From K189A clade bacterium (GTDB lineage Bacteria > Pseudomonadota > Gammaproteobacteria > Pseudomonadales > Azotimanducaceae): a stretch of DNA of 64,000 nt. The notes beneath the pieces were generated by a model. The model had not been told where the DNA came from. It saw nothing but the letters and a program-made list of their open reading frames with translations, and searched no databases. Where the stretch lies: contig CABZTD010000001.1 of NCBI GenBank assembly GCA_902528515.1, positions 1-64,000 of the forward strand, written 5' to 3'. Below, piece by piece: positions 9,142-57,842 of this stretch. The position numbers and the translations under genes are program-made. Numbering within the stretch: position 1 is the first letter of the stretch; the number at the start of each line of letters is the position of its first letter.

Positions 9142-10389
9142 ATGACACAGGCAGCACCTCTTCAACCGCCCACAAGGACCATACGCAAGTCCGACAAGCT
9201 GGCGGATGTTTGTTACGACATTCGCGGGCCTGTGTTGACCGCAGCCAACCAGCTGGAGGCCGAGGGCCATCAGATTCTGAAGCTGAATATTGGCAACCCC
9301 GCACCCTGGGGCTTTAGCGCACCAGAGGAAATTTTGCTTGATGTGGTGCGGAACATTCCCAACTCTCAGGGCTACAGCGATTCCAAGGGCCTTTTCGCCG
9401 CTCGCAAAGCTGTGATGCAGTACTGCCAGCAAATCAACATTCGCGATGTCGATGTTGAGGATATATACATCGGTAATGGCGTATCGGAACTTGTGGTGCT
9501 GTCAATGCAGGCCCTGGTAAACGATGGTGACGAGGTTCTGGTCCCCTGCCCTGACTTTCCTTTGTGGAGTGCCGCAGTAAATCTCTGCGGCGGCACACCG
9601 GTGCATTATCTTTGTGATGAAGAAGACGAATGGCAGCCAGACCTTGAAGACATTCGCAGCAAGATTACTCCGAATACCCGAGGCATCGTGGTGATCAATC
9701 CAAACAACCCCACCGGCGCCGTTTATACCCCGAAGATGCAGCAAGCGCTGATCAATATTGCGCGTGAGCACGACCTAGTCGTTTTTGCCGACGAGATTTA
9801 CGACAAAATTTTGTTTGATAACGAACGGTATATTCCACTTGCCTCCTACGCCGATGACCTCCTCTGTATGACCTTTAGCGGCCTGTCGAAGTCTTATCGG
9901 GTCGCGGGTTTTCGCGCTGGATGGATGGTGGTAAGCGGTGCCCGAGAACGTGCCTCGGATTTTATTGAAGGCCTGAATATTCTCGCTTCCATGCGACTGT
10001 GTTCAAACGTGCCAAGCCAGCACGCCATACAAACCGCCCTCGGCGGACACCAGAGCATTTTTGAACTCACCGCACCGGGTGGGCGACTGCATGAACAGCG
10101 GAACCTGGCCTGGGAGCTGCTGAACAAAATTGACGGCGTTTCCTGCACAAAGCCTAAGGGCGCGCTCTATCTGTTCCCTAAGTTGGATACCAAGCGCTTT
10201 AATGTTCGAGATGACATGCAGTTCGTGCTCGATTTTCTATTAGCAGAAAAAGTACTAACGGTTCAGGGCACTGGCTTTCACTGGCCGAAGCCAGATCATT
10301 TTCGCGTGGTATTTCTGCCCCACGTTGAGCAGATACGCGAGTCCATTGGCCGCCTAGAACGCTTTCTCGCGAACTACCGGCAGCAGTAA
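9142..10389 (+). CDS. alaA: Alanine-type aminotransferase (AlaA-like)
   Basis: Fold-type I PLP enzyme, 415 aa, closely resembling E. coli AlaA, the glutamate-pyruvate aminotransferase: VCYDIRGPVLTAANQLE, LKLNIGNPAPWGFSAPEE, EDIYIGNGVSELVV, INPNNPTGAVYTP and the PLP-lysine segment FSGLSKSYRVAGFRAGW are nearly the same as in that protein. The ORF track begins at 9082; I chose the ATG at 9142 because AGGAAGGCTC precedes it and the shorter N-terminus matches the family. It converges with the ATP-NAD-kinase-like gene, whose stop is 7 bp away. Confidence 0.93.
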   Translation: MTQAAPLQPPTRTIRKSDKLADVCYDIRGPVLTAANQLEAEGHQILKLNIGNPAPWGFSAPEEILLDVVRNIPNSQGYSDSKGLFAARKAVMQYCQQINIRDVDVEDIYIGNGVSELVVLSMQALVNDGDEVLVPCPDFPLWSAAVNLCGGTPVHYLCDEEDEWQPDLEDIRSKITPNTRGIVVINPNNPTGAVYTPKMQQALINIAREHDLVVFADEIYDKILFDNERYIPLASYADDLLCMTFSGLSKSYRVAGFRAGWMVVSGARERASDFIEGLNILASMRLCSNVPSQHAIQTALGGHQSIFELTAPGGRLHEQRNLAWELLNKIDGVSCTKPKGALYLFPKLDTKRFNVRDDMQFVLDFLLAEKVLTVQGTGFHWPKPDHFRVVFLPHVEQIRESIGRLERFLANYRQQ

Positions 10390-10396
10390 TCGTCTA

Positions 10397-11578
10397 CTAA
10401 GGCGAGTAAGTGTTGGCGACCCGATACAGCAAGAAGTCGTCATAGCCTGTCAGCACGCTCACCAAACCTGACAACTGCTGATCTAGTGTTGCATCTCCAG
10501 TATCGACCAACAGCGGGCGCCGTTCCAAGGTAGCCATCTTGGTGCGGGATCCCACGACCGTAACGTCTCGCTCCCAGCTTAGCGCGCGTAGCAAACCCGG
10601 GCCAAGTTGCTGATTGCCGCGCCCTAACAGAAAACCTTGGTGGCGTGTGAAGCTGACCAATACATGGGTTGGCTGCTGTTCTGCCATACGCTGGAGCTGG
10701 GCACTGGTGGCATTCTCAATAGCCTCACCGCCCGGCAGCATTACATCGCATCCAAGCAGCGTGCCGTTTAAGCCCAGCGCCTGCTTGATGGCTAGGCAGG
10801 TGCTGCCAGGGCCAATGACTAAGGCTTTATCCGCATAAACTTCCGAGTTGTCCAAGAAGTAGCTGACGATCTCTTGCACCACTAGGCCCTCGTCCTCTTT
10901 GCCGCCTACCTTCATATGTTGGAGATAGCCCCCCGCTTCCGGCACCCAAAGCTCGCCATAGCGCTTAGTAGCGACGACCTGATGTCTTGCGATCGGGTTG
11001 TCACTGGACATAGGCACGTAATCACGGACCTCCCGTTCGATGCGGCCCACCAAACTCCCCTGGACCAGGCCTGCCACCACATCGGCAGCTGCGTTGGCGC
11101 TTATCGCGAATACGCCACTGTGCATTTTTACACCAGCGGGCAAGCCAAGCGCACAAGTGCGTTCGTCAATAGATGTCAGCACGTCTCGCGCTGTGCCGTC
11201 GCCACCGACAAAAATCAATAGGTCGATCTTCCTCCCGCACAGGGTTTCAACGGCGCAGCGTGTGTCCTGTGCTGAAGTTTGAGTCGCAGGTTCGCCGAGC
11301 ACTTGGGCCAGCACGTCCAAGGAAGCCAAGAGCTCCGCGCCCATTGCACCACCCCACGTGTACCAGGCGAGTTGCGCAAACTTGTCGCCCAATAGCCTCT
11401 GTAGCCGCGCTAAAAATATCGTTAGTCGCTCCTGCCCTGTCGGCTTGCCGTCGAGCTTCCGAGCGGCGCGCTGCAAGGCCTCGCCGTCGCTCCCCTGCAG
11501 ACCCACTGCGCCACCAATGCCAGCGAGCGGATTTACCACCAAGCCTAGGCGCAGCGAGGGCACGAATGTTTCAGACAT
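10397..11578 (-). CDS. ATP-NAD kinase family protein (AcoX-like)
   Basis: Predicted kinase of the diacylglycerol/NAD-kinase superfamily, about 393 aa. It has LGLVVNPLAGIGGAVGLQGS at the start, the nucleotide-binding motif IFVGGDGTARDVL near residue 140, and LGLPAGVKMHSGVFAISA, which matches the long AcoX-type group rather than housekeeping NAD kinase NadK. The substrate of this group is not firmly known. An ATG at 11578 follows the upstream gene's TGA by 5 bp; a TTG at 11587 that would overlap that stop is the alternative. It is the last gene of the tusA-like/epmC operon. Confidence 0.82.
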   Translation of the reverse strand: MSETFVPSLRLGLVVNPLAGIGGAVGLQGSDGEALQRAARKLDGKPTGQERLTIFLARLQRLLGDKFAQLAWYTWGGAMGAELLASLDVLAQVLGEPATQTSAQDTRCAVETLCGRKIDLLIFVGGDGTARDVLTSIDERTCALGLPAGVKMHSGVFAISANAAADVVAGLVQGSLVGRIEREVRDYVPMSSDNPIARHQVVATKRYGELWVPEAGGYLQHMKVGGKEDEGLVVQEIVSYFLDNSEVYADKALVIGPGSTCLAIKQALGLNGTLLGCDVMLPGGEAIENATSAQLQRMAEQQPTHVLVSFTRHQGFLLGRGNQQLGPGLLRALSWERDVTVVGSRTKMATLERRPLLVDTGDATLDQQLSGLVSVLTGYDDFLLYRVANTYSP

Positions 11579-38715: not shown

Positions 38716-38792
38716 GCACCCGTGGCCAAACTGGATAAGGCACCGGTCTACGAAACCGGGGATTACAGGTTCGAATCCTGTCGGGTGCGCCA
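38716..38792 (+). tRNA. tRNA-Arg(ACG)
   Basis: 77 nt with encoded CCA. The acceptor arm is GCACCCG/CGGGTGC, the anticodon stem CCGGT/ACCGG closes the loop CTACGAA with anticodon ACG, and the T arm is ACAGG/CCTGT with loop TTCGAAT. Its last 14 bases are repeated at 47356-47369, making it the attachment gene of the island that follows. The tRNA itself is intact. Confidence 0.96.
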
Positions 38793-38793
38793 T
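38779..38793 (+). repeat. attL core (tRNA 3' end)
   Basis: TGTCGGGTGCGCCAT, the tRNA-Arg(ACG) 3' end plus one base. The identical 15 bp at 47356-47370 form the other boundary. A shorter echo, TGCGCCAT, occurs at 38827-38834 just inside the island. Confidence 0.88.
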
Positions 38794-38884: not shown

Positions 38885-40294
38885 ATGCTAAAGCTAGCGA
38901 TCAATGGCGTGACCCTATCAGTGAAATACCTGCATAAAGCTAAGGGTAGGCAAACCTACAACTACAGGAGACTTGTCCCTTCAGACCTTCGCCAGCACTA
39001 CGCAGGGCGAGAAATCATCAGATCACTCAAGACATCTGATCCAACAATCGCTGCACGAGAGTGTCTTAGAATGACACGGGAAGTAGAAGCTGAATTTCTG
39101 CGATTGCGCAGTGGTCTGCCAAAAGTGTCCAGCGAGGGTAAGCACGGCCTAGGGCTGAAGCTGCTGAGGCAATTTGGCATACAGCCCCAGGATTACGACA
39201 AAGCTGACAATGAGGCGCAGGGAGACGTACTGGGCTTCGCAGCCCACATTGAAAAGGCTTTTGAATCGGCGCTGTCGGTCGAGGAAATGGATGCACTTAG
39301 ATGGGATGCCGCCAAGGCTGATGCATCAAGGCTGCCTTTAGCAGAGAGGGCAGCACTTGAGACACTGAGAGGCGAGTTCAGGCTCAAAGCTTCAGAGTAC
39401 CCAGCTGAATACCTGCGATTGAAAGACAAAGCGTCAGACCAAAAGTTTAAAAATGACGCTGAGTTAGCGGTGAAGTTTCTGCTTGCGGCGCTGCCTGATA
39501 AAGCACCGGGCGAATACAGACGCTCCGATCTCAATGATTTGATCGCTCTTCAGCGTGACCTAGGACTCAAAAGTGCCAGCATCAGACGAAGGCTCGCGAT
39601 GCTGAGGGCCATGTTCAACTTAGTTTCGATGGAGCTAGAGCTTGATGAGGACAGACAACATCCTTTTCACGATTGGCACATCCCTGGCGAAGGAGAAGAC
39701 AAAAGAGACAAACAGGACTTCTCCTTTGATCAGCTTATGCAACTGCGAGAATTTGAGGTCGGCAGAGTCAAGGAGATCAAGTGGATGATGCATCTCATGC
39801 TCGACACGGGCTTGAGGATGAAAGAATGCTGCGGACTCATGCGACAAGACGTATACCTAAATGATCAGTACCCCCATTTGCGGGTCGCCCAGAACCCCTT
39901 CCGACGATTAAAGACAAAAAACAGCAAGCGATTTGTACCTCTTGTTGGTGTGGCGCTAGAAGCCGCTATGGAGGCCGTGGAGAGCGGTGACAGCGATTGG
40001 TTGTTCGCGCGTTATATCGATCTGAAGAAGCAGCAGACAAAAAACACGTCTGCCGCCAATACGATGAATAAAGCCATCGCTGGATACCTAGGCCCTGGCG
40101 CCCCTACTTCCCATAGCTTCCGTCATACAATGCAGACAAGACTGCGGGAGGTTGGCTGTCCAGAGCACCTGCGCAACGAGTTGGGAGGATGGAGCAAAAC
40201 CGTGTCTCAGAGCTATGGCTCAACGGCCGACCTGAAAAATAAAAGCGAATACCTGCAAAAGGCGGTTATGACACCTTTCAGGAACATCACTTAG
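38885..40294 (+). CDS. Tyrosine recombinase (integrase)
   Basis: Phage-type integrase of 469 aa. The N-terminal part YLHKAKGRQTYNYRRLVPSD resembles the DUF6538 module found in many tRNA-targeting integrases. A SAM-like core-binding region (about 190-270) precedes the catalytic domain, where the residues are in MLDTGLRMKECCGLM (R), PTSHSFRHTMQTRLRE (HxxR) and GGWSKTVSQSYGSTADL (tyrosine). It should integrate and excise the island at tRNA-Arg(ACG). The lysine- and arginine-rich body fits DNA binding. It appears intact. Confidence 0.95.
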   Translation: MLKLAINGVTLSVKYLHKAKGRQTYNYRRLVPSDLRQHYAGREIIRSLKTSDPTIAARECLRMTREVEAEFLRLRSGLPKVSSEGKHGLGLKLLRQFGIQPQDYDKADNEAQGDVLGFAAHIEKAFESALSVEEMDALRWDAAKADASRLPLAERAALETLRGEFRLKASEYPAEYLRLKDKASDQKFKNDAELAVKFLLAALPDKAPGEYRRSDLNDLIALQRDLGLKSASIRRRLAMLRAMFNLVSMELELDEDRQHPFHDWHIPGEGEDKRDKQDFSFDQLMQLREFEVGRVKEIKWMMHLMLDTGLRMKECCGLMRQDVYLNDQYPHLRVAQNPFRRLKTKNSKRFVPLVGVALEAAMEAVESGDSDWLFARYIDLKKQQTKNTSAANTMNKAIAGYLGPGAPTSHSFRHTMQTRLREVGCPEHLRNELGGWSKTVSQSYGSTADLKNKSEYLQKAVMTPFRNIT

Positions 40295-40867: not shown

Positions 40868-41560
40868 CTACTGGATTCTGACTGAGGTAGCCTGTTGTAC
40901 AAATTCCCCGGCTGGGTCGCGACCGGCTGCCGACCAATACTCAACCCACTCTTGGCTTTCATTTCTCTTCGCTACATTAGATTGCCACTCACTCCAACTA
41001 GCGGCACCAGTAATGAAGTACATGACTCCAAGTCCCGAGGAGTAAACCATCGGATTTAAATCGAACTTGTCCTGAATACTTGCGCTGGTTTGCATACTCG
41101 TTAGAAGGTCAGCAGCAGTTTTACCGTCGGCGGCATCCCAAGCAGAGAAGTAGACAATATTGATGTCTTCCCAAACACTGGAAGTTGCATTTGGATCAAG
41201 TACGTTGCCCAAGTTAAAGCTTTCTACCAAGTGAGAGCTAAAAGTCGCGTAGTTGGCATTGATCCAACTTTGCCACGCATCATCCTCGCTGAGCTTGTCT
41301 TTGAACGAAGCCCAGTCCTCTCCGGTATCGAATCTAATAATATAACTAACTACGTTGTTTCCCATGACGTCGTGCTGCCAGTATTCAACCGAGCCACCCA
41401 ACCTTTCGTGCACGGCCTTAGCTTCGTCGAACCAAGCGATAGTGTCTTGTAAGCTGCCATTGATCGGTTTGAAGTCCCATGCTTCAAACCCGTCCGAATA
41501 TACTTTCGTACTGAGCAAAAGCATCAGCAAGCCGCACATCGTGATCTTCACTTTGAGCAT
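40868..41560 (-). CDS. Exported protein of unknown function, 230 aa
   Basis: Family not recognised. A signal peptide (KITMCGLLMLLLSTKVYSDG) is clear. The mature part looks like two copies of an alpha/beta module, each with an aromatic run: NVVSYIIRFDTGEDWASFKD and LGVMYFITGAASWSEWQSN; both are followed by a tryptophan-rich helix (DDAWQSWINANY, NESQEWVEYWSAAGRD). That suggests a ferredoxin-like barrel repeat, as in NIPSNAP or antibiotic-monooxygenase-like proteins, but this is only a shape guess. It has its own terminator and is the first cargo gene after the integrase, transcribed toward it. Confidence 0.7.
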   Translation of the reverse strand: MLKVKITMCGLLMLLLSTKVYSDGFEAWDFKPINGSLQDTIAWFDEAKAVHERLGGSVEYWQHDVMGNNVVSYIIRFDTGEDWASFKDKLSEDDAWQSWINANYATFSSHLVESFNLGNVLDPNATSSVWEDINIVYFSAWDAADGKTAADLLTSMQTSASIQDKFDLNPMVYSSGLGVMYFITGAASWSEWQSNVAKRNESQEWVEYWSAAGRDPAGEFVQQATSVRIQ

Positions 41561-42360: not shown

Positions 42361-43245
42361 GTGCGGAGCTACCGTTTTATACGGATAGCTGTTTTCACGC
42401 TTCTAGTGCTGTGGCTTTTAACGAAGGCAGTGACTGCAATAACCAGCCAGCAGCTTGAAAAGAGCCGTACGCGCCTAATCACCCAAGAAGTAACTCTGAA
42501 AGAGGCATCTTTTGACGCTCTGCTTGGTCTAGAAAACAGCGCTTACCGCTATGTGCAAGCTCCTCACAAGGGATCATATATTGGAGTTGTTAAACAGGCT
42601 GAAAGAGTAAGCCAACCAGCAACTCAAGAGATTACTTACAACCGAGTCGAAGGCACCGAAAATAGGGAAGTCAACCTCCGATATTTCGCAAACGACAAAA
42701 GAGGCCTTTACGTTGTTGAGTTAAATAGTTCGGCCAGAGAAATGTCCTTTGGCGAGAGTTGGGAGCAAACTACCAGAGGACGCCTTCTAACAGCTAGGGA
42801 CTACAACACCCCACCAAACGAATCTAGCCGTTGGACTGAAAAGACGACCGCCCGAAGAACAGAGAGCGGCATTGTTATTGAACGTGACCAACCTCAAAAA
42901 AACGGTGTTGCCGAAAATGAAGCTTTGTTTGAAAGCGAGATGCATTCAGAGGTACTCAAAAACATAGAGTCAGGCAACCTAGACTTTCAAATCACTGTTC
43001 TGCGAGACGAATCCCAAACCTTTTCAGATTTGGTTAAAGTTACGATAGAACCTGACCTAAGATTCGGCGAACAACTTCCACTTCACAAATTGGTCAGAAA
43101 CGGTACCTTTACCAGCCATGATGGTACTGTCGCAGACTGGAGTTCTACCGAAGTAATCACATCGTCTGGGATCATTGTAGAAAGCCGCCTGGAAACAGGA
43201 GGTAGTGAGTTGTCATTCAAGCTCGAAGCTTTAGAGCTCCTCTAG
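42361..43245 (+). CDS. Membrane-anchored hypothetical protein, 294 aa
   Basis: Not recognised. The start is a GTG at 42361; a single N-terminal membrane helix (IRIAVFTLLVLWLLTKAVTA) is followed by a polar, charged domain of about 260 residues predicted to lie in the periplasm. That domain is rich in E, R, T and S with beta-like alternation (ITVLRDESQTFSDLVKVTIE) and no cysteine. The ribosome site is weak (AGGAGGCGG lies about 20 bp upstream), so expression or start choice is uncertain. A repeat of the AAACCC family follows 27 bp after its stop. Confidence 0.6.
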   Translation: MRSYRFIRIAVFTLLVLWLLTKAVTAITSQQLEKSRTRLITQEVTLKEASFDALLGLENSAYRYVQAPHKGSYIGVVKQAERVSQPATQEITYNRVEGTENREVNLRYFANDKRGLYVVELNSSAREMSFGESWEQTTRGRLLTARDYNTPPNESSRWTEKTTARRTESGIVIERDQPQKNGVAENEALFESEMHSEVLKNIESGNLDFQITVLRDESQTFSDLVKVTIEPDLRFGEQLPLHKLVRNGTFTSHDGTVADWSSTEVITSSGIIVESRLETGGSELSFKLEALELL

Positions 43246-43299: not shown

Positions 43300-43491
43300 G
43301 AGACATTCCCATCAAAAACCTTAGCTAAAGCAAGCTATCGCGCATCAGGACTCACCATCCCGAGACGCTTTCTTGGTCTTAACTATCAGTGGCGGCAGAA
43401 CAAGAAGAAGTGGAAGGAAGAAGAAGCCTGCTTTGCTACTGATTTTGAAAATCATGTAGCAGCAGTACAGCACCAAAACGGTGATCAATAG
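43300..43491 (+). pseudogene. Start-less coding fragment
   Basis: The frame reads ETFPSKTLAKASYRASGLTI, PRRFLGLNYQWRQNKKKWKE and ends AAVQHQNGDQ at a TAG. Composition is protein-like and basic, but there is no start codon and a TGA lies just upstream, so it seems to be the remains of a gene. Repeat copy A lies upstream and copy B begins 22 bp after its stop. Confidence 0.35.
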
Positions 43492-43513
43492 GTTTCTTAC
43501 TAGGATCATTCGC

Positions 43514-43532
43514 AAACCCTACCAAAACACCC
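43514..43532 (+). repeat. AAACCC repeat, copy B
   Basis: AAACCCTACCAAAACACCC, shortly after the start-less fragment. It is related to copies A, C and D. Confidence 0.45.
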
Positions 43533-43911: not shown

Positions 43912-44379
43912 ATGAAAAATGAATTCTTTAGCTCGAAGCTGCCCATCTTAGCCACGCTCGCAGCATTGACCGCTTGTGCGACTATCCCTGATTACAAACC
44001 AATCGTAGACACGAGTTCCGTAGACGACATACCGAAGTTAAACAAGGATATTGCCGAATGTGAGGATATTACCAACCAAGTCGACTACTCCGACGAGGAG
44101 GCTATTGCAGCGCTTGCTGGGGCAGGCGTTGGCGCAGCAGCGGTTGCTGGGGGAACAGCAGTAGTACTTGGAGCAACAGGTGGCTTTAGTGCCCTCGCCG
44201 CAGGAGCCACCTTATCCCCTGTAGTATGGCCCTTATTGGGAGCAGGTATGTTAATTGGGAGTCAAACGAACAAGCGCAAAACAAACGTAGAAGAACAAAA
44301 ACTGAGAGCGTTAGTTTGGAATAGGTGCTTGATGGATCGCGGATACGCCGTCTTAACAGAAAATTACGACCCATCATAA
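43912..44379 (+). CDS. Glycine-zipper lipoprotein, 155 aa
   Basis: A predicted lipoprotein: SKLPILATLAALTACATIPD gives a lipobox with cysteine at about residue 22. The mature part begins with a short acidic region, then at about 65-120 has a long small-residue stretch (LAGAGVGAAAVAGGTAVVLG, GGFSALAAGATLSPVVWPLL), a glycine-zipper type membrane-inserting segment, ending with a basic tail (TNKRKTNVEEQKLRALVWNR). Glycine-zipper lipoproteins are often linked to the outer membrane or to pore-like assemblies; its role here is unknown. Repeat copy C begins 43 bp after its stop. Confidence 0.72.
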   Translation: MKNEFFSSKLPILATLAALTACATIPDYKPIVDTSSVDDIPKLNKDIAECEDITNQVDYSDEEAIAALAGAGVGAAAVAGGTAVVLGATGGFSALAAGATLSPVVWPLLGAGMLIGSQTNKRKTNVEEQKLRALVWNRCLMDRGYAVLTENYDPS

Positions 44380-44422
44380 GAAATCTGGTTCATATGCGCC
44401 TATTAAGCTAGAACCTAGCGAA

Positions 44423-44459
44423 TAACCCCCAAACCCCTCAAAATGTCCGCCCATGCCTA
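44423..44459 (+). repeat. AAACCC repeat, copy C (left bracket of nuclease block)
   Basis: Contains AAACCCCTCAAAATGTCC followed by GCCCATGCCTAT. About 30 of 37 positions agree with copy D at 47140. It overlaps the last bases of the nuclease gene. Confidence 0.55.
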
Positions 44460-45707
44460 TTTCAAAGAAACGGAAGCTATTGGCCGCTTCTTTGTCTTCT
44501 CATCTGCAGGGTCGGGCAGCTCGCCATAACTTGGAGTGCCATTGATGATGTTCAAAACCTCAATTTTCACTTCCTCATCCTCGAGCCAGTAGGGAATTCT
44601 CGCGACTGTAAACCCTAACTCCTTGGCGCGAAGGAGTTTCTGAGCGTCATTTGCCGCTTGATTAGAGTACGTACGGCCCTTCTTGGTAAACAAATGAGAG
44701 GTCTCCCTGCCCCATACCTCTGGGTAATGCTGTTCACCGTCCCTTTCAATCAATATGCCTTGGTCGATAAGGAGAAAATCAAAGAACCTTACAGCTCCAT
44801 TAACGTTAACTTTGTACTGGCTTCTGAAATTTGTAATGTCCTGAAGAATTTCAGCTAGCCGCCCCTCGCCTTTGTTATAGCAGGATGAGCAGCCGCTACC
44901 TTTCAAGTGATGATCTGCTCGTTGTTCAAAGTAACCATGTACCCTGCATCCGATCTCCACACCTTCTTGATCCCCACAGTATTTTGCTCTGTCATAAAGG
45001 TAAGTCGTCCCATGAGTATTTAAGGCCTCTTGCAGAAATTGCTCTTGTGACTTCCTTGTCTTTGCCGTTATCTTCGCGACTCTACAGGCCTCACATCCCA
45101 CCTTGCGGTAATAATGATCAGCTGCGGTGGGGAAAAACGTTTGACTGTGTTCATTGCAAAATACTTCGATAGGCTGATGCCAAGCCACCTTTGACGGATC
45201 TAACGCTACGTTTTCATAATTGAATTTGTGAGATCCATGAGCCTCTCTAAATCTATTCACAAGGCTGGACACTTCGGCGCGCCGCGACTCTGCGTAGCAA
45301 GCCCTGCACCCATATTTGGTGTCATCAAGTAATAAATAGTTCGCTATAACGCTCTTTTCGCCATGACGACTGCAAATGAATGTTGCTTTCTCATCGCCTC
45401 CTGCATAAACCGTTGCTGAGAAATCGAGATGGTCGCCATACTTTTTTCTCAATGCGGCTCTAAACTCGTCTGTTGTATATTTTGTTCTGGCCTTAGCCCT
45501 CGCTGTAATGCTGCAGTCTCTGCAACCATGTTTGCTTTTCAGATGATTGTCTGGGGTAGTGCGGATTTCCTTGTCGTGGACAAGACAGCGTAGAACCACC
45601 TCGCTCTTTGCATCGAGGTAATTAGTTTTGCTGTAATCGAACCTATCTCCAAACTTAGACCGTGATTGTTCGATGAAGGTTTGTGTGGATTTGCGCTGCC
45701 CTTTCAT
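44457..45707 (-). CDS. Zinc-ribbon repeat (DUF723-like) nuclease with VSR-like C-terminus
   Basis: A 416-aa protein with four similar repeats, each with a C-x2-H pair and a later C-x2-C pair: CLVHDKE with GCRDC, CSRHGEK with GCRAC, CNEHSQ with GCEAC, CRVHGY with GCSSC. Each repeat starts like FIEQSRSKFGDRFDYSKTNY. This is the DUF723-type pattern known from phage and mobile nucleases. From about residue 275 a PD-(D/E)xK/VSR-like domain follows, with FFDFLLIDQGILIERDGEQH and the late helix-strand AKELGFTVARIPYW. It likely binds and cuts DNA; whether for homing, defence or repair is not known. It starts 5 bp after the small RHH-like gene. Confidence 0.78.
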   Translation of the reverse strand: MKGQRKSTQTFIEQSRSKFGDRFDYSKTNYLDAKSEVVLRCLVHDKEIRTTPDNHLKSKHGCRDCSITARAKARTKYTTDEFRAALRKKYGDHLDFSATVYAGGDEKATFICSRHGEKSVIANYLLLDDTKYGCRACYAESRRAEVSSLVNRFREAHGSHKFNYENVALDPSKVAWHQPIEVFCNEHSQTFFPTAADHYYRKVGCEACRVAKITAKTRKSQEQFLQEALNTHGTTYLYDRAKYCGDQEGVEIGCRVHGYFEQRADHHLKGSGCSSCYNKGEGRLAEILQDITNFRSQYKVNVNGAVRFFDFLLIDQGILIERDGEQHYPEVWGRETSHLFTKKGRTYSNQAANDAQKLLRAKELGFTVARIPYWLEDEEVKIEVLNIINGTPSYGELPDPADEKTKKRPIASVSLK

Positions 45708-45712
45708 TAGTC

Positions 45713-45865
45713 TTAGCCCGCTCTGAACATACGCTCGAACTCATCCTCAATAAGCTTAGCCACCTGTAATCCCGGCCCACGCTTTTCAGCCTTACAAATC
45801 TTTTCCAGCTTCTTGAAAGTTTTCAGATCCAACTGAACAGGCTTCCTTATCGGTTTCTTATCCAT
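45713..45865 (-). CDS. Small ribbon-helix-helix-like protein, 50 aa
   Basis: Too short for the ORF track. The product begins MDKKPIRKPVQLDLKTFKKL and ends VAKLIEDEFERMFRAG. A basic start, one short strand (PVQLDL) and two helices would match a ribbon-helix-helix DNA-binding fold, the type used by many antitoxins and plasmid repressors. TGGAGAGTC precedes the ATG. It sits between the 76-aa gene (18 bp upstream) and the nuclease (5 bp downstream), so it is likely an autoregulator of that operon; this is inference. Confidence 0.65.
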   Translation of the reverse strand: MDKKPIRKPVQLDLKTFKKLEKICKAEKRGPGLQVAKLIEDEFERMFRAG

Positions 45866-45883
45866 GACTCTCCACCACGATCT

Positions 45884-46114
45884 TTAATGCAAGTCCTCTC
45901 GCCAGCCGTCAGCAGCAATTTCGCGAGCTTCGGCTATCCGTAAGTCGACATCGATTTTTTTTCCGCTCATGTAAAGCTCATAAGCACAAATGGTGAGGAC
46001 TGTAAGAAATAGAGACTTTTCCTCATCTTCATCCCGCTCGTTCTGACCCACCCATGATCTAAATGATTCGATAATGCCAGCTTCTTGGCGGTGCTCTGAG
46101 CTAGCTTTTTTCAC
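45884..46114 (-). CDS. Small hypothetical protein, 76 aa, first gene of nuclease operon
   Basis: Not recognised. I chose the GTG at 46114 (MKKASSEHRQEAGIIESFRS), which has GGAG six bases upstream; the track's TTG start at 46126 has no ribosome site. The protein is acidic and helical: VGQNERDEDEEKSLFLTVLT, then SGKKIDVDLRIAEAREIAAD. No catalytic motif or membrane helix is clear. It leads a three-gene minus-strand operon with the RHH-like protein and the nuclease, and its promoter region is shared with the divergent 136-aa gene. Confidence 0.58.
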   Translation of the reverse strand: MKKASSEHRQEAGIIESFRSWVGQNERDEDEEKSLFLTVLTICAYELYMSGKKIDVDLRIAEAREIAADGWREDLH

Positions 46115-46201
46115 CGTCGTCTCCAAATAAGTTGTGGTTGACTGAGGGTTATTAGATTAATACGCTGAACTCTGAAATGCAACTGATAAAAACCGTTTGC
46201 A

Positions 46202-46217
46202 CTTCTGTATACAGAAG
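46202..46217. promoter_or_regulatory. Perfect 16-bp palindrome in the divergent promoter region
   Basis: CTTCTGTATACAGAAG lies between the divergent nuclease operon and the 136-aa gene, followed by TATACGTGG. It is a candidate operator, perhaps for the RHH-like protein. The spacing does not fit a LexA box. Confidence 0.5.
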
Positions 46218-46296
46218 TATACGTGGTCAGGATTAAGGTGGGTGGCAATTGCACCAAGAAAATAGGGTGGGCGAACACGAGTATAGGGATGACAGG

Positions 46297-46707
46297 ATGT
46301 TCGTTATGAACCTTCATCCCTGTGGCGGTGGCCGTTGGCAACTGATCACTTATCGGAACACTGGGCTTCTGCCTGGCGTTAGATCAGATGAGTTCGATAG
46401 CTTTAAGGAGGCTGAACGGTACGTCAAGAAATGGGAATTAACGGTGCCTTTGCAAAGCCTTTCGGGAAGGCCGATGAATCTTGATCACCTAGAGACACAG
46501 GATGAGCGTTATAACTTTTATCTAAATTGGCTGGAAGAAAGAGGACTGTTTGGAGCAATGAAGCTATATCGGCATTGTCCCTATTGGCATGACCCTCGTG
46601 GATGGACAGAGAAAAGGGCTGCAGTGCGTGTCAAAAGAGAGAGCCGGACATTCGAGGGTGTGGAAGTGGAGGTAACTGAAACAAGCTTCCCCTTAAGAGA
46701 AGAGTAA
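46297..46707 (+). CDS. Hypothetical protein, 136 aa
   Basis: Not recognised. The ATG at 46297 (MFVMNLHPCGGGRWQLITYR) is preferred; a GTG at 46267 and the track's TTG at 46249 are possible. The first half looks like a small beta-sheet domain (GRWQLITYRNTGLLPGV), the second is helical and aromatic (LDHLETQDERYNFYLNWLEE, MKLYRHCPYWHDPRGWTEKR). Its stop overlaps the start of the next gene by one base (TAATG), so the two are coupled. Together with the divergent nuclease operon it makes a five-gene block between repeat copies C and D. Confidence 0.6.
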   Translation: MFVMNLHPCGGGRWQLITYRNTGLLPGVRSDEFDSFKEAERYVKKWELTVPLQSLSGRPMNLDHLETQDERYNFYLNWLEERGLFGAMKLYRHCPYWHDPRGWTEKRAAVRVKRESRTFEGVEVEVTETSFPLREE

Positions 46708-47129
46708 TGGCTTTCATTCCTCGTAGGAAATATGCGCAAGCGCATTTAGATGAAATACGTTTTATCACTGACGTAAACGATTGGTTTGCTTTCCTAGACC
46801 AAAAAGACCGCCTGCTTTATTTAATGGAAATAGCTGAACCATGGCATGAGTCACTTATCCACAGACACAAAATAAAAAGGGGCGTCATGGAATGGGGAGA
46901 TTTGACGCTGCTCGTTGGCTCTAACTTTTATGGTCTATGGACCGATCGAACTGGTCAGGAGAGGTGGATATGCGAAATTGTCTCTGACATGGCTGTTGAA
47001 TGGCATGCATGCGGAGGCTTCTATTATCCAAATGCGTCCATTTTTCACGATGAACACGGTCTTGAGGCTGAACGAATATGGGAGCGGTACTTAAAATTGA
47101 TTGAGCAGGTGAGGAGCACGTTAGCTTGA
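46707..47129 (+). CDS. Hypothetical protein, 140 aa
   Basis: Not recognised. The start overlaps the preceding stop, with AAGAGAAGAG as ribosome site. The protein is soluble and aromatic, with eight tryptophans in segments such as DVNDWFAFLDQKDRLLYLME and GVMEWGDLTLLVGSNFYGLW, and histidines in HACGGFYYPNASIFHDEHG that could bind a metal. No known enzyme motif was identified. It is the last cargo gene before the right island boundary; repeat copy D begins 11 bp after its stop. Confidence 0.6.
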   Translation: MAFIPRRKYAQAHLDEIRFITDVNDWFAFLDQKDRLLYLMEIAEPWHESLIHRHKIKRGVMEWGDLTLLVGSNFYGLWTDRTGQERWICEIVSDMAVEWHACGGFYYPNASIFHDEHGLEAERIWERYLKLIEQVRSTLA

Positions 47130-47139
47130 ATTACTTTAT

Positions 47140-47176
47140 AACCCTTTAAACCCCAAAAATGCCCTCCCATGCATAT
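47140..47176 (+). repeat. AAACCC repeat, copy D (right bracket of nuclease block)
   Basis: Contains AAACCCCAAAAATGCCC followed by TCCCATGCATAT. It matches copy C at about 30 of 37 positions. It lies between the last cargo gene and the right att site. Confidence 0.55.
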
Positions 47177-47234
47177 ATCTAGGTAGCTAGGGGGTATGGT
47201 CACCTGCCTCCCCCTTTCTTTAAGGACAGAAGAA

Positions 47235-47355: not shown

Positions 47356-47370
47356 TGTCGGGTGCGCCAT
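47356..47370 (+). repeat. attR core
   Basis: TGTCGGGTGCGCCAT, identical to 38779-38793. The preceding bases (GAGTCA) only partly match the tRNA (GAATCC), so the shared core is 15 bp. Confidence 0.88.
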
Positions 47371-53863: not shown

Positions 53864-54211
53864 TCTGTCTCGTAGCACCAGACTGTTTTTCATATTTTAT
53901 TTCCCGAGCGCGGTAAATGTTTGGGAACCTCCCAATACTGAATTGGTTTGAAAACAGAGCAACGAACCGTCGAGGCCGCTATATCAAGGAAACCGCGAGC
54001 TATGCTTTCCAATTAGAGGCTAATCTTTTCTGCTGGCCACAACCTTTTGGCCCCTCGATTCGCAAATATTTCTGTCCATGCCCATATCTTGGTTGAAAGG
54101 GAGTACAGCCAGCTGCCCCAGAATAAACAAAAAGACCACTTCGTAGCTCTTGAAAATGAATATAACGTGTTGGAATGTTTGGTTCCGTAGTCATTGGAGT
54201 GAGAGGAATTT
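53864..54211. other. Spacer without recognised features
   Basis: About 350 bp between the collagen-like gene and the NTF2-like gene. The minus-strand 64- and 77-aa ORFs are unlike proteins. Nothing else was seen. Confidence 0.45.
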
Positions 54212-57752: not shown

Positions 57753-57842
57753 TGGCGGAGAGAGAGGGATTCGAACCCTCGAAGGCTTTTACACCTTACA
57801 CGCTTTCCAAGCGTGCGCGATCGACCACTCTGCCACCTCTCC
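57753..57842 (-). tRNA. tRNA-Ser(GGA)
   Basis: 90 nt on the minus strand with encoded CCA. The acceptor is GGAGAGG/TCTCTCC, the anticodon stem CACGC/GCGTG closes the loop TTGGAAA with anticodon GGA, a long variable arm follows as in class II tRNAs, and the T arm is CGAGGGTTCGAATCCCTC. It lies 10 bp downstream of the SRP RNA gene on the same strand. Confidence 0.95.

Follow-up and report, generated by a model that had tools for sequence, protein, structure and literature searches.

The five-gene block at the right end of a small tRNA island in an uncultured marine bacterium is, we believe, probably a homing-type nuclease cassette, housed in a cargo platform that is integron-like but not an integron. 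Within the window (the whole 64-kb stretch of DNA analysed here), the cassette is a discrete 2.7-kb insert of five genes, with no further cargo between it and attR. The repeat family that delimits it is a more novel part of the finding than the nuclease block itself. To our knowledge this family, with a unit of ~72 bp, was previously unnoticed, and literature searches of partial coverage returned no description of it.

The island is 8.6 kb long, bears an integrase, and sits in the 3' end of tRNA-Arg(acg). It has a tRNA target, a tyrosine integrase of its own, 15-bp direct att repeats, and an empty site in relatives, which together are the marks expected of a tRNA island; its GC content is 46%, versus 53% outside. 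In the closest relative (G033), tRNA-Arg lies ~180 bp from the Ldh2 gene, and this interval aligns across the island ends; in three further congeners with empty sites (G001, G029, and G059) the two genes are ~76 bp apart. The original prediction for this DNA had overlooked the tRNA-Arg island, its integrase, and the role of the repeats as a family of cassette boundaries across islands. The features of island and block are, in order:

38716–38792, + strand: tRNA-Arg(acg), the integration target (ARAGORN)
38779–38793, + strand: attL, TGTCGGGTGCGCCAT, at the tRNA gene 3' end (15-bp direct repeat with 47356–47370)
38885–40294, + strand: island integrase, a 469-aa tyrosine recombinase with DUF6538 and Phage_integrase domains (PF00589, 1.1e-17; PF20172, 4.4e-16)
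40868–41560, − strand: cargo, 230-aa protein with a weak relative elsewhere in this genome (contig C7)
41860–42210, + strand: cargo, 116-aa protein, no function assigned
42361–43245, + strand: cargo, 294-aa protein, followed by weak repeat variant A at about 43272
43348–43515, − strand: membrane ORF of 54–56 aa; repeat variant B at 43514
43912–44379, + strand: cargo, 155-aa lipoprotein-like protein, whose 3' end and repeat recur (broken gene) at the tRNA-Phe locus of G018
44422–44462, + strand: repeat copy C, the left 41 of ~72 positions (nhmmer E = 5e-10)
44457–45707, − strand: nuclease, 416 aa, with four zinc-ribbon modules (DUF723-like) and a C-terminal VSR-like domain (PHROG, DUF723, and 1vsr matches)
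45713–45865, − strand: 50-aa small protein, a candidate DNA-binding regulator
45884–46126, − strand: ORF of 76–80 aa; the open frame is 80 aa from a TTG
46201–46218: perfect 18-bp palindrome ACTTCTGTATACAGAAGT, a candidate operator between the divergent gene groups
46297–46707, + strand: 136-aa protein, starting at an ATG
46707–47129, + strand: 140-aa protein, with relatives in G016 and G060
47138–47208, + strand: repeat copy D, complete, starting 8 bp past the stop of the 140-aa gene (nhmmer E = 7e-19)
47356–47370, + strand: attR, TGTCGGGTGCGCCAT, the island end (15-bp direct repeat with 38779–38793)

The block had been described as bracketed by 37-bp direct repeats matching at about 30 of 37 positions. 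The repeats are real, as copies C and D are identical at 28/37 positions without gaps (the next best place in the window reaches 22/37) and both score well against the profile, but the unit is ~72 bp long and C is a partial copy that, unlike most others, has no right part. Thirteen matches are present in the genome itself (75% complete). By profile search, 17 of 40 congeners carry the repeat; among about 340 genomes of the order, so do three that belong to other families. It is absent from the 4–6 Mb congeners, and none was seen in the viral contigs searched. Copies cluster near tRNA genes, in tRNA islands; at several loci, 110–290 bp separate the last copy from an att fragment or the 3' end of a tRNA. 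The DNA unit carrying the 54–56 aa membrane ORF recurs at no fewer than five other loci, and the ORF is conserved at the protein level in islands of several species, with identity of up to 89% (tblastn). In one genome, G239, two repeat copies lie in near-perfect inverted repeats around a collagen-like gene, beside a DUF6538 integrase related to that of the window (28%), which is a hint and nothing firmer.

Placement of the copies relative to genes is strongly one-sided. Eighteen of 35 strong copies start at most 80 bp past the stop of an ORF (110 aa or longer) on the same strand; the mirror control gives 1/35, and for randomly chosen intergenic positions the figure is 12% (P about 1e-8, a value that overstates the evidence, since copies and loci are related by descent; the asymmetry is plain nonetheless). 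For the other 17, the 80 bp upstream contain no ORF stop. The cleanest example is locus L037 in G033. This tRNA-Thr island has a different integrase of its own, and in it a direct array of five copies separates GST, membrane, ABM plus 280-aa, and SnoaL-type genes. Taken with the placement statistics, this locus has an integron-like organization, a same-orientation array of single-gene units with a site after each gene. These observations bear on a simpler account, to which we give perhaps a minor share of belief, in which the repeats are ordinary dispersed repeats of tRNA-island hotspots, general homologous recombination reshuffles the cargo, and the block is a chance insertion. The decay of many copies is in keeping with that account. 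Placement and orientation after gene ends, at 18 versus 1 of 35, are not what it would lead one to expect, nor is a core that stays conserved while its flanks differ.

The same cargo recurs across species and tRNA loci with changed neighbors, and the switch falls in the conserved part of the repeat. Between species, one upstream gene is followed by different downstream DNA in the case of GST (L037, L038, and L101), the 280-aa gene (L037 and L099), flagellin (L005 and L098), the lipoprotein gene (window and L040), the 140-aa gene (window and L106), and others. The converse, shared downstream DNA behind a different upstream gene, is seen in more than ten pairs, some of which have only about 80–135 bp of downstream sequence in common. 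One entire unit (L038 10650–11215 and L043 1869–1328) occupies different neighborhoods in two species. A sharp exchange point in mid-repeat is seen for the block itself; over all pairs the change point does not resolve, and averaging fixed no position within the repeat, which leaves room for ordinary homologous recombination at the repeats.

For the block, the point of entry can be read from the sister species G018. Its tRNA-Phe locus has a broken copy of the lipoprotein gene (85% identical), one intact repeat, and island-end DNA, with the block absent. The left part of this repeat agrees with C at 34/41 positions versus 29/41 for D, and the right part with D at 27/30 versus 12/30 for C. On this sequence comparison, the G018 repeat is the pre-insertion form of the block's site, combining the left of C with the right of D. 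Retention of the upstream gene and repeat without the block marks the block as a discrete inserted unit, and the composite repeat indicates that it entered a single repeat at about position 41–43, bringing its own left part, now in D. The alignments thus place the block (about 44462–47178) as an insertion inside one ~72-bp repeat near the att end of the island. Such precision at the repeat center, with a pre-insertion form in a sister species, would be surprising for a chance insertion among dispersed repeats. The junctions have the layout of a cassette insertion, and would fit intronless homing equally well if the nuclease cut there.

Known site types and enzymes were examined in turn. The RYYYAAC...GTTRRRY pair of integron attC sites occurs in 0/35 repeat copies, and RNAalifold on 21 copies gave no pair and no covariation that would suggest an attC-like fold. 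IntI, by model TIGR02249, exceeds the cut-off in six of 40 congeners; the repeat is in none of those, and no carrier has the enzyme. As a Xer dif or pdif site the repeat reaches at best 14/28 identities (P = 0.21), with 6/11 in the XerD arm. Rfam finds only tRNAs near the repeats, and there is no conserved fold to suggest a structured RNA or terminator. Y1 transposases, expected for HUH (IS200/IS605) mobility, are in 0/11 carriers, and serine recombinases in 2/11. Nor is the island integrase a good candidate for the cassette recombinase: repeat-bearing islands carry unrelated integrases, and three carriers have no tyrosine recombinase beyond XerC and XerD. No recombinase other than XerC/D is common to the carriers. 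Either the exchange uses an enzyme that is unrecognized or has been lost from those genomes, or it proceeds by homologous recombination at the repeats. The lack of a shared recombinase, the unrelated integrases across islands, and an exchange point not placed over all pairs count in favor of the dispersed-repeat account. A bolder version of our own reading is possible, but we would not expect it to hold: the ~72-bp repeat would be where a recombination system for cassettes acts, one related to neither integrons nor Xer modules, swapping single genes between tRNA islands of marine gammaproteobacteria, and the nuclease block a homing cassette spreading by cutting that site.

The reading we prefer, a homing-type nuclease cassette, draws on the nuclease itself. 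The four C-x2-H...C-x2-C modules of the original prediction were recounted as exactly four CxxH...CxxC pairs, at residues 41/62, 112/134, 184/205, and 254/273, and the VSR-like domain was likewise recovered. Residues D, IExDGxQHY, and Q...D of this domain are largely invariant in an alignment of seven relatives. A structural model of low confidence (mean pLDDT 66) matches Escherichia coli Vsr (1vsr) with a Foldseek probability of 0.99, a TM score of 0.61 by target, and E = 0.087; at that level of confidence, it has a VSR-fold catalytic domain with conserved acidic residues. The protein matches PHROGs 559 (3.8e-53), 681 (1.4e-30), and 9084 (2.5e-9), which are annotated as HNH, endonuclease, and homing endonuclease, and Pfam DUF723 (2.6e-5). 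A relative is present in 669 phage records, several of them annotated as homing endonuclease. EDxHD is among the homing endonuclease families and is related to PD-(D/E)-XK (PMC6083498). Because of these family matches, phage relatives, conserved residues, the Vsr model match, and the EDxHD background, we read the protein as an apparently intact homing-type endonuclease of the phage type. Homing had been one of three options offered earlier for the block; the families that the nuclease matches agree with it, and homing itself is suggested by family resemblance only. The stop codon of the gene (44457–44459, read on the − strand) falls inside repeat copy C.

The five ORFs and their divergent arrangement were all found as described earlier, with small corrections only. 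The − strand ORF at 45884–46126 lacks an ATG start, which makes its length uncertain, and the genes for the 136-aa and 140-aa proteins overlap by one base. The perfect palindrome reported between the divergent groups is there too, and is the sole one of at least 16 bp within 64 kb. For the small partners, already called unrecognizable, Pfam, PHROGs, NCBIfam, and PADLOC gave no match better than chance, and the searches run against phages, plasmids, and viral contigs returned no relatives. For the 50-aa protein, identity as an RHH regulator is plausible but unproven: the model has two helices only, and its best PDB match, the PutA DNA-binding domain, is not significant (E = 3.7). Relatives within the genus were found for the 140-aa protein alone. 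One, in G016, is truncated and adjoins a repeat; the other, in G060 (36%), is flanked by a 213-aa ORF and a macro-domain gene. Neither is accompanied by the nuclease, so the 140-aa gene travels separately from it, and the 136/140-aa pair looks like separate cargo.

Two other functions had been proposed for the block. Were it an anti-phage defense module, the nuclease would cut phage DNA, with the small genes in a regulatory or helper role and the island end as a defense site; a nuclease with small regulators inside a mobile island, and divergent operons around a palindrome, could be seen that way. We consider this very unlikely, as PADLOC models of known defense systems give only fragments (E about 0.02), the relatives of the nuclease abound in phages themselves, and nowhere else in the genomes searched do the five genes occur together, the outcome that the original prediction had itself named as telling against its module. 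That module survives as a discrete inserted unit, given the block-free form in G018, and not as a conserved five-gene system. More improbable still is a selfish toxin–antitoxin (addiction) element, which the small paired genes and a candidate autoregulatory palindrome might recall: the database searches above (Pfam, NCBIfam, and PADLOC) turned up no toxin or antitoxin family, and the pair is not conserved, its 140-aa member having other neighbors in G060.

If the block is indeed a homing-type cassette in an integron-like platform, recombination within the conserved repeat core would add and exchange cargo, giving the outcome of an integron-like cassette platform at a non-integron site. The zinc-ribbon modules would bind DNA and the VSR-like domain would cut it, as in a homing-type nuclease, and by cutting rival islands, or copies of its insertion site that lack the block, the nuclease could spread the cassette that carries it. 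The small upstream proteins and the palindrome may regulate the nuclease. What is known of gene cassette exchange in bacteria comes essentially from integrons (and Xer modules). If true, the present scheme would add a second path for exchanging single genes, with a different site, in the small tRNA islands of streamlined marine bacteria, and one that integron finders miss. A homing-type nuclease lying exactly in such a site would make nuclease-driven cassette spread testable.

Several known systems resemble parts of this arrangement. XerCD-dependent pdif modules of Acinetobacter plasmids are gene modules bounded by recombination sites, and they use host recombinases; here too only XerC/D is common to the carriers, although the repeat resembles neither dif nor pdif and greatly exceeds 28 bp in length. 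With the free-standing VSR/EDxHD homing endonucleases of phages, the nuclease shares tandem zinc-ribbon modules and a VSR-like catalytic domain, but it resides in a bacterial island, with its stop codon inside the insertion-junction repeat. Among tRNA-targeted islands, the tycheposons of marine bacteria are tRNA-bordered cargo elements of 4–200 kb with a tyrosine recombinase (PMC10872708). Compared by general outline in the case of tycheposons, such islands have in common with ours the tRNA 3' end target, the tyrosine recombinase, and variable cargo; ours differs in that a separate repeat marks off its cargo, one that has no relation to the tRNA att sequence and is common to islands with unrelated integrases. 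Integron cassettes and CALIN arrays differ in their attC motif pair and conserved fold, neither of which the repeat has, and in IntI, which the carriers lack. What they share with the present family is the direct array of units of one or two genes with a site of ~70 bp in fixed orientation after each, the typical cargo (GST, ABM monooxygenase, SnoaL, and secreted proteins of unknown function), and insertion in mid-site that leaves one complete and one partial copy.

One small protein recurs among the repeat-bearing islands, and a second, shorter type of repeat occurs in the window, as does a tRNA-Ser gene:

43348–43515 (−), membrane ORF of 54–56 aa, conserved at the protein level in other islands
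~43272 and ~43514, copies of the type-2 repeat
57753–57842, tRNA-Ser(gga)

The membrane ORF recurs beyond its own contig and species, with protein identity of up to 89%, in the islands L037 (the tRNA-Thr island of G033, the closest relative), L005, L039, L040, L044, L100, and L101. It is a small hydrophobic cargo protein that recurs among islands. The type-2 repeat (AAACCCTACCAAAACACCCTCTCAGACGCACACACAGGCCCGTAGAGGCG), present also at L005 ~7163 and L037 ~7530, is shorter than the main repeat and has the same left start, but its right part differs.

Within the cassette array of L037, two adjacent cassettes have in common a 122-bp leader with a signal peptide (9150–9275 and 10667–10790; 97.5% identical), while the mature proteins behind it are unrelated to each other, as if signal peptides had been shuffled between cassettes. 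Flagellin genes are directly followed by the main repeat in two species (L005 10436–11404; L098 near 5448), and flagellin may be exchanged as cargo. For the 140-aa protein of the nuclease block, a relative in the congener G060 (L178 1–1569) is flanked by a 213-aa ORF and a macro-domain gene.

The tRNA-Arg/Ldh2 locus that carries the island in the window has no integrase in G011 (L108 6339–7682); its only content there is a coding segment in reverse orientation, with a decayed copy of the repeat on either side. A degenerate main-repeat copy lies at 54041–54117 (+) of the window, on the way to tRNA-Ser(gga), which in G033 is adjoined by an integrase. In G239, from another family, the main repeat sits within ~262-bp near-perfect inverted repeats (L170 5148–5409 and 9973–10233); a DUF6538 integrase adjoins this segment, and the enclosed 4.6-kb stretch, which carries a collagen-like gene, is possibly invertible.
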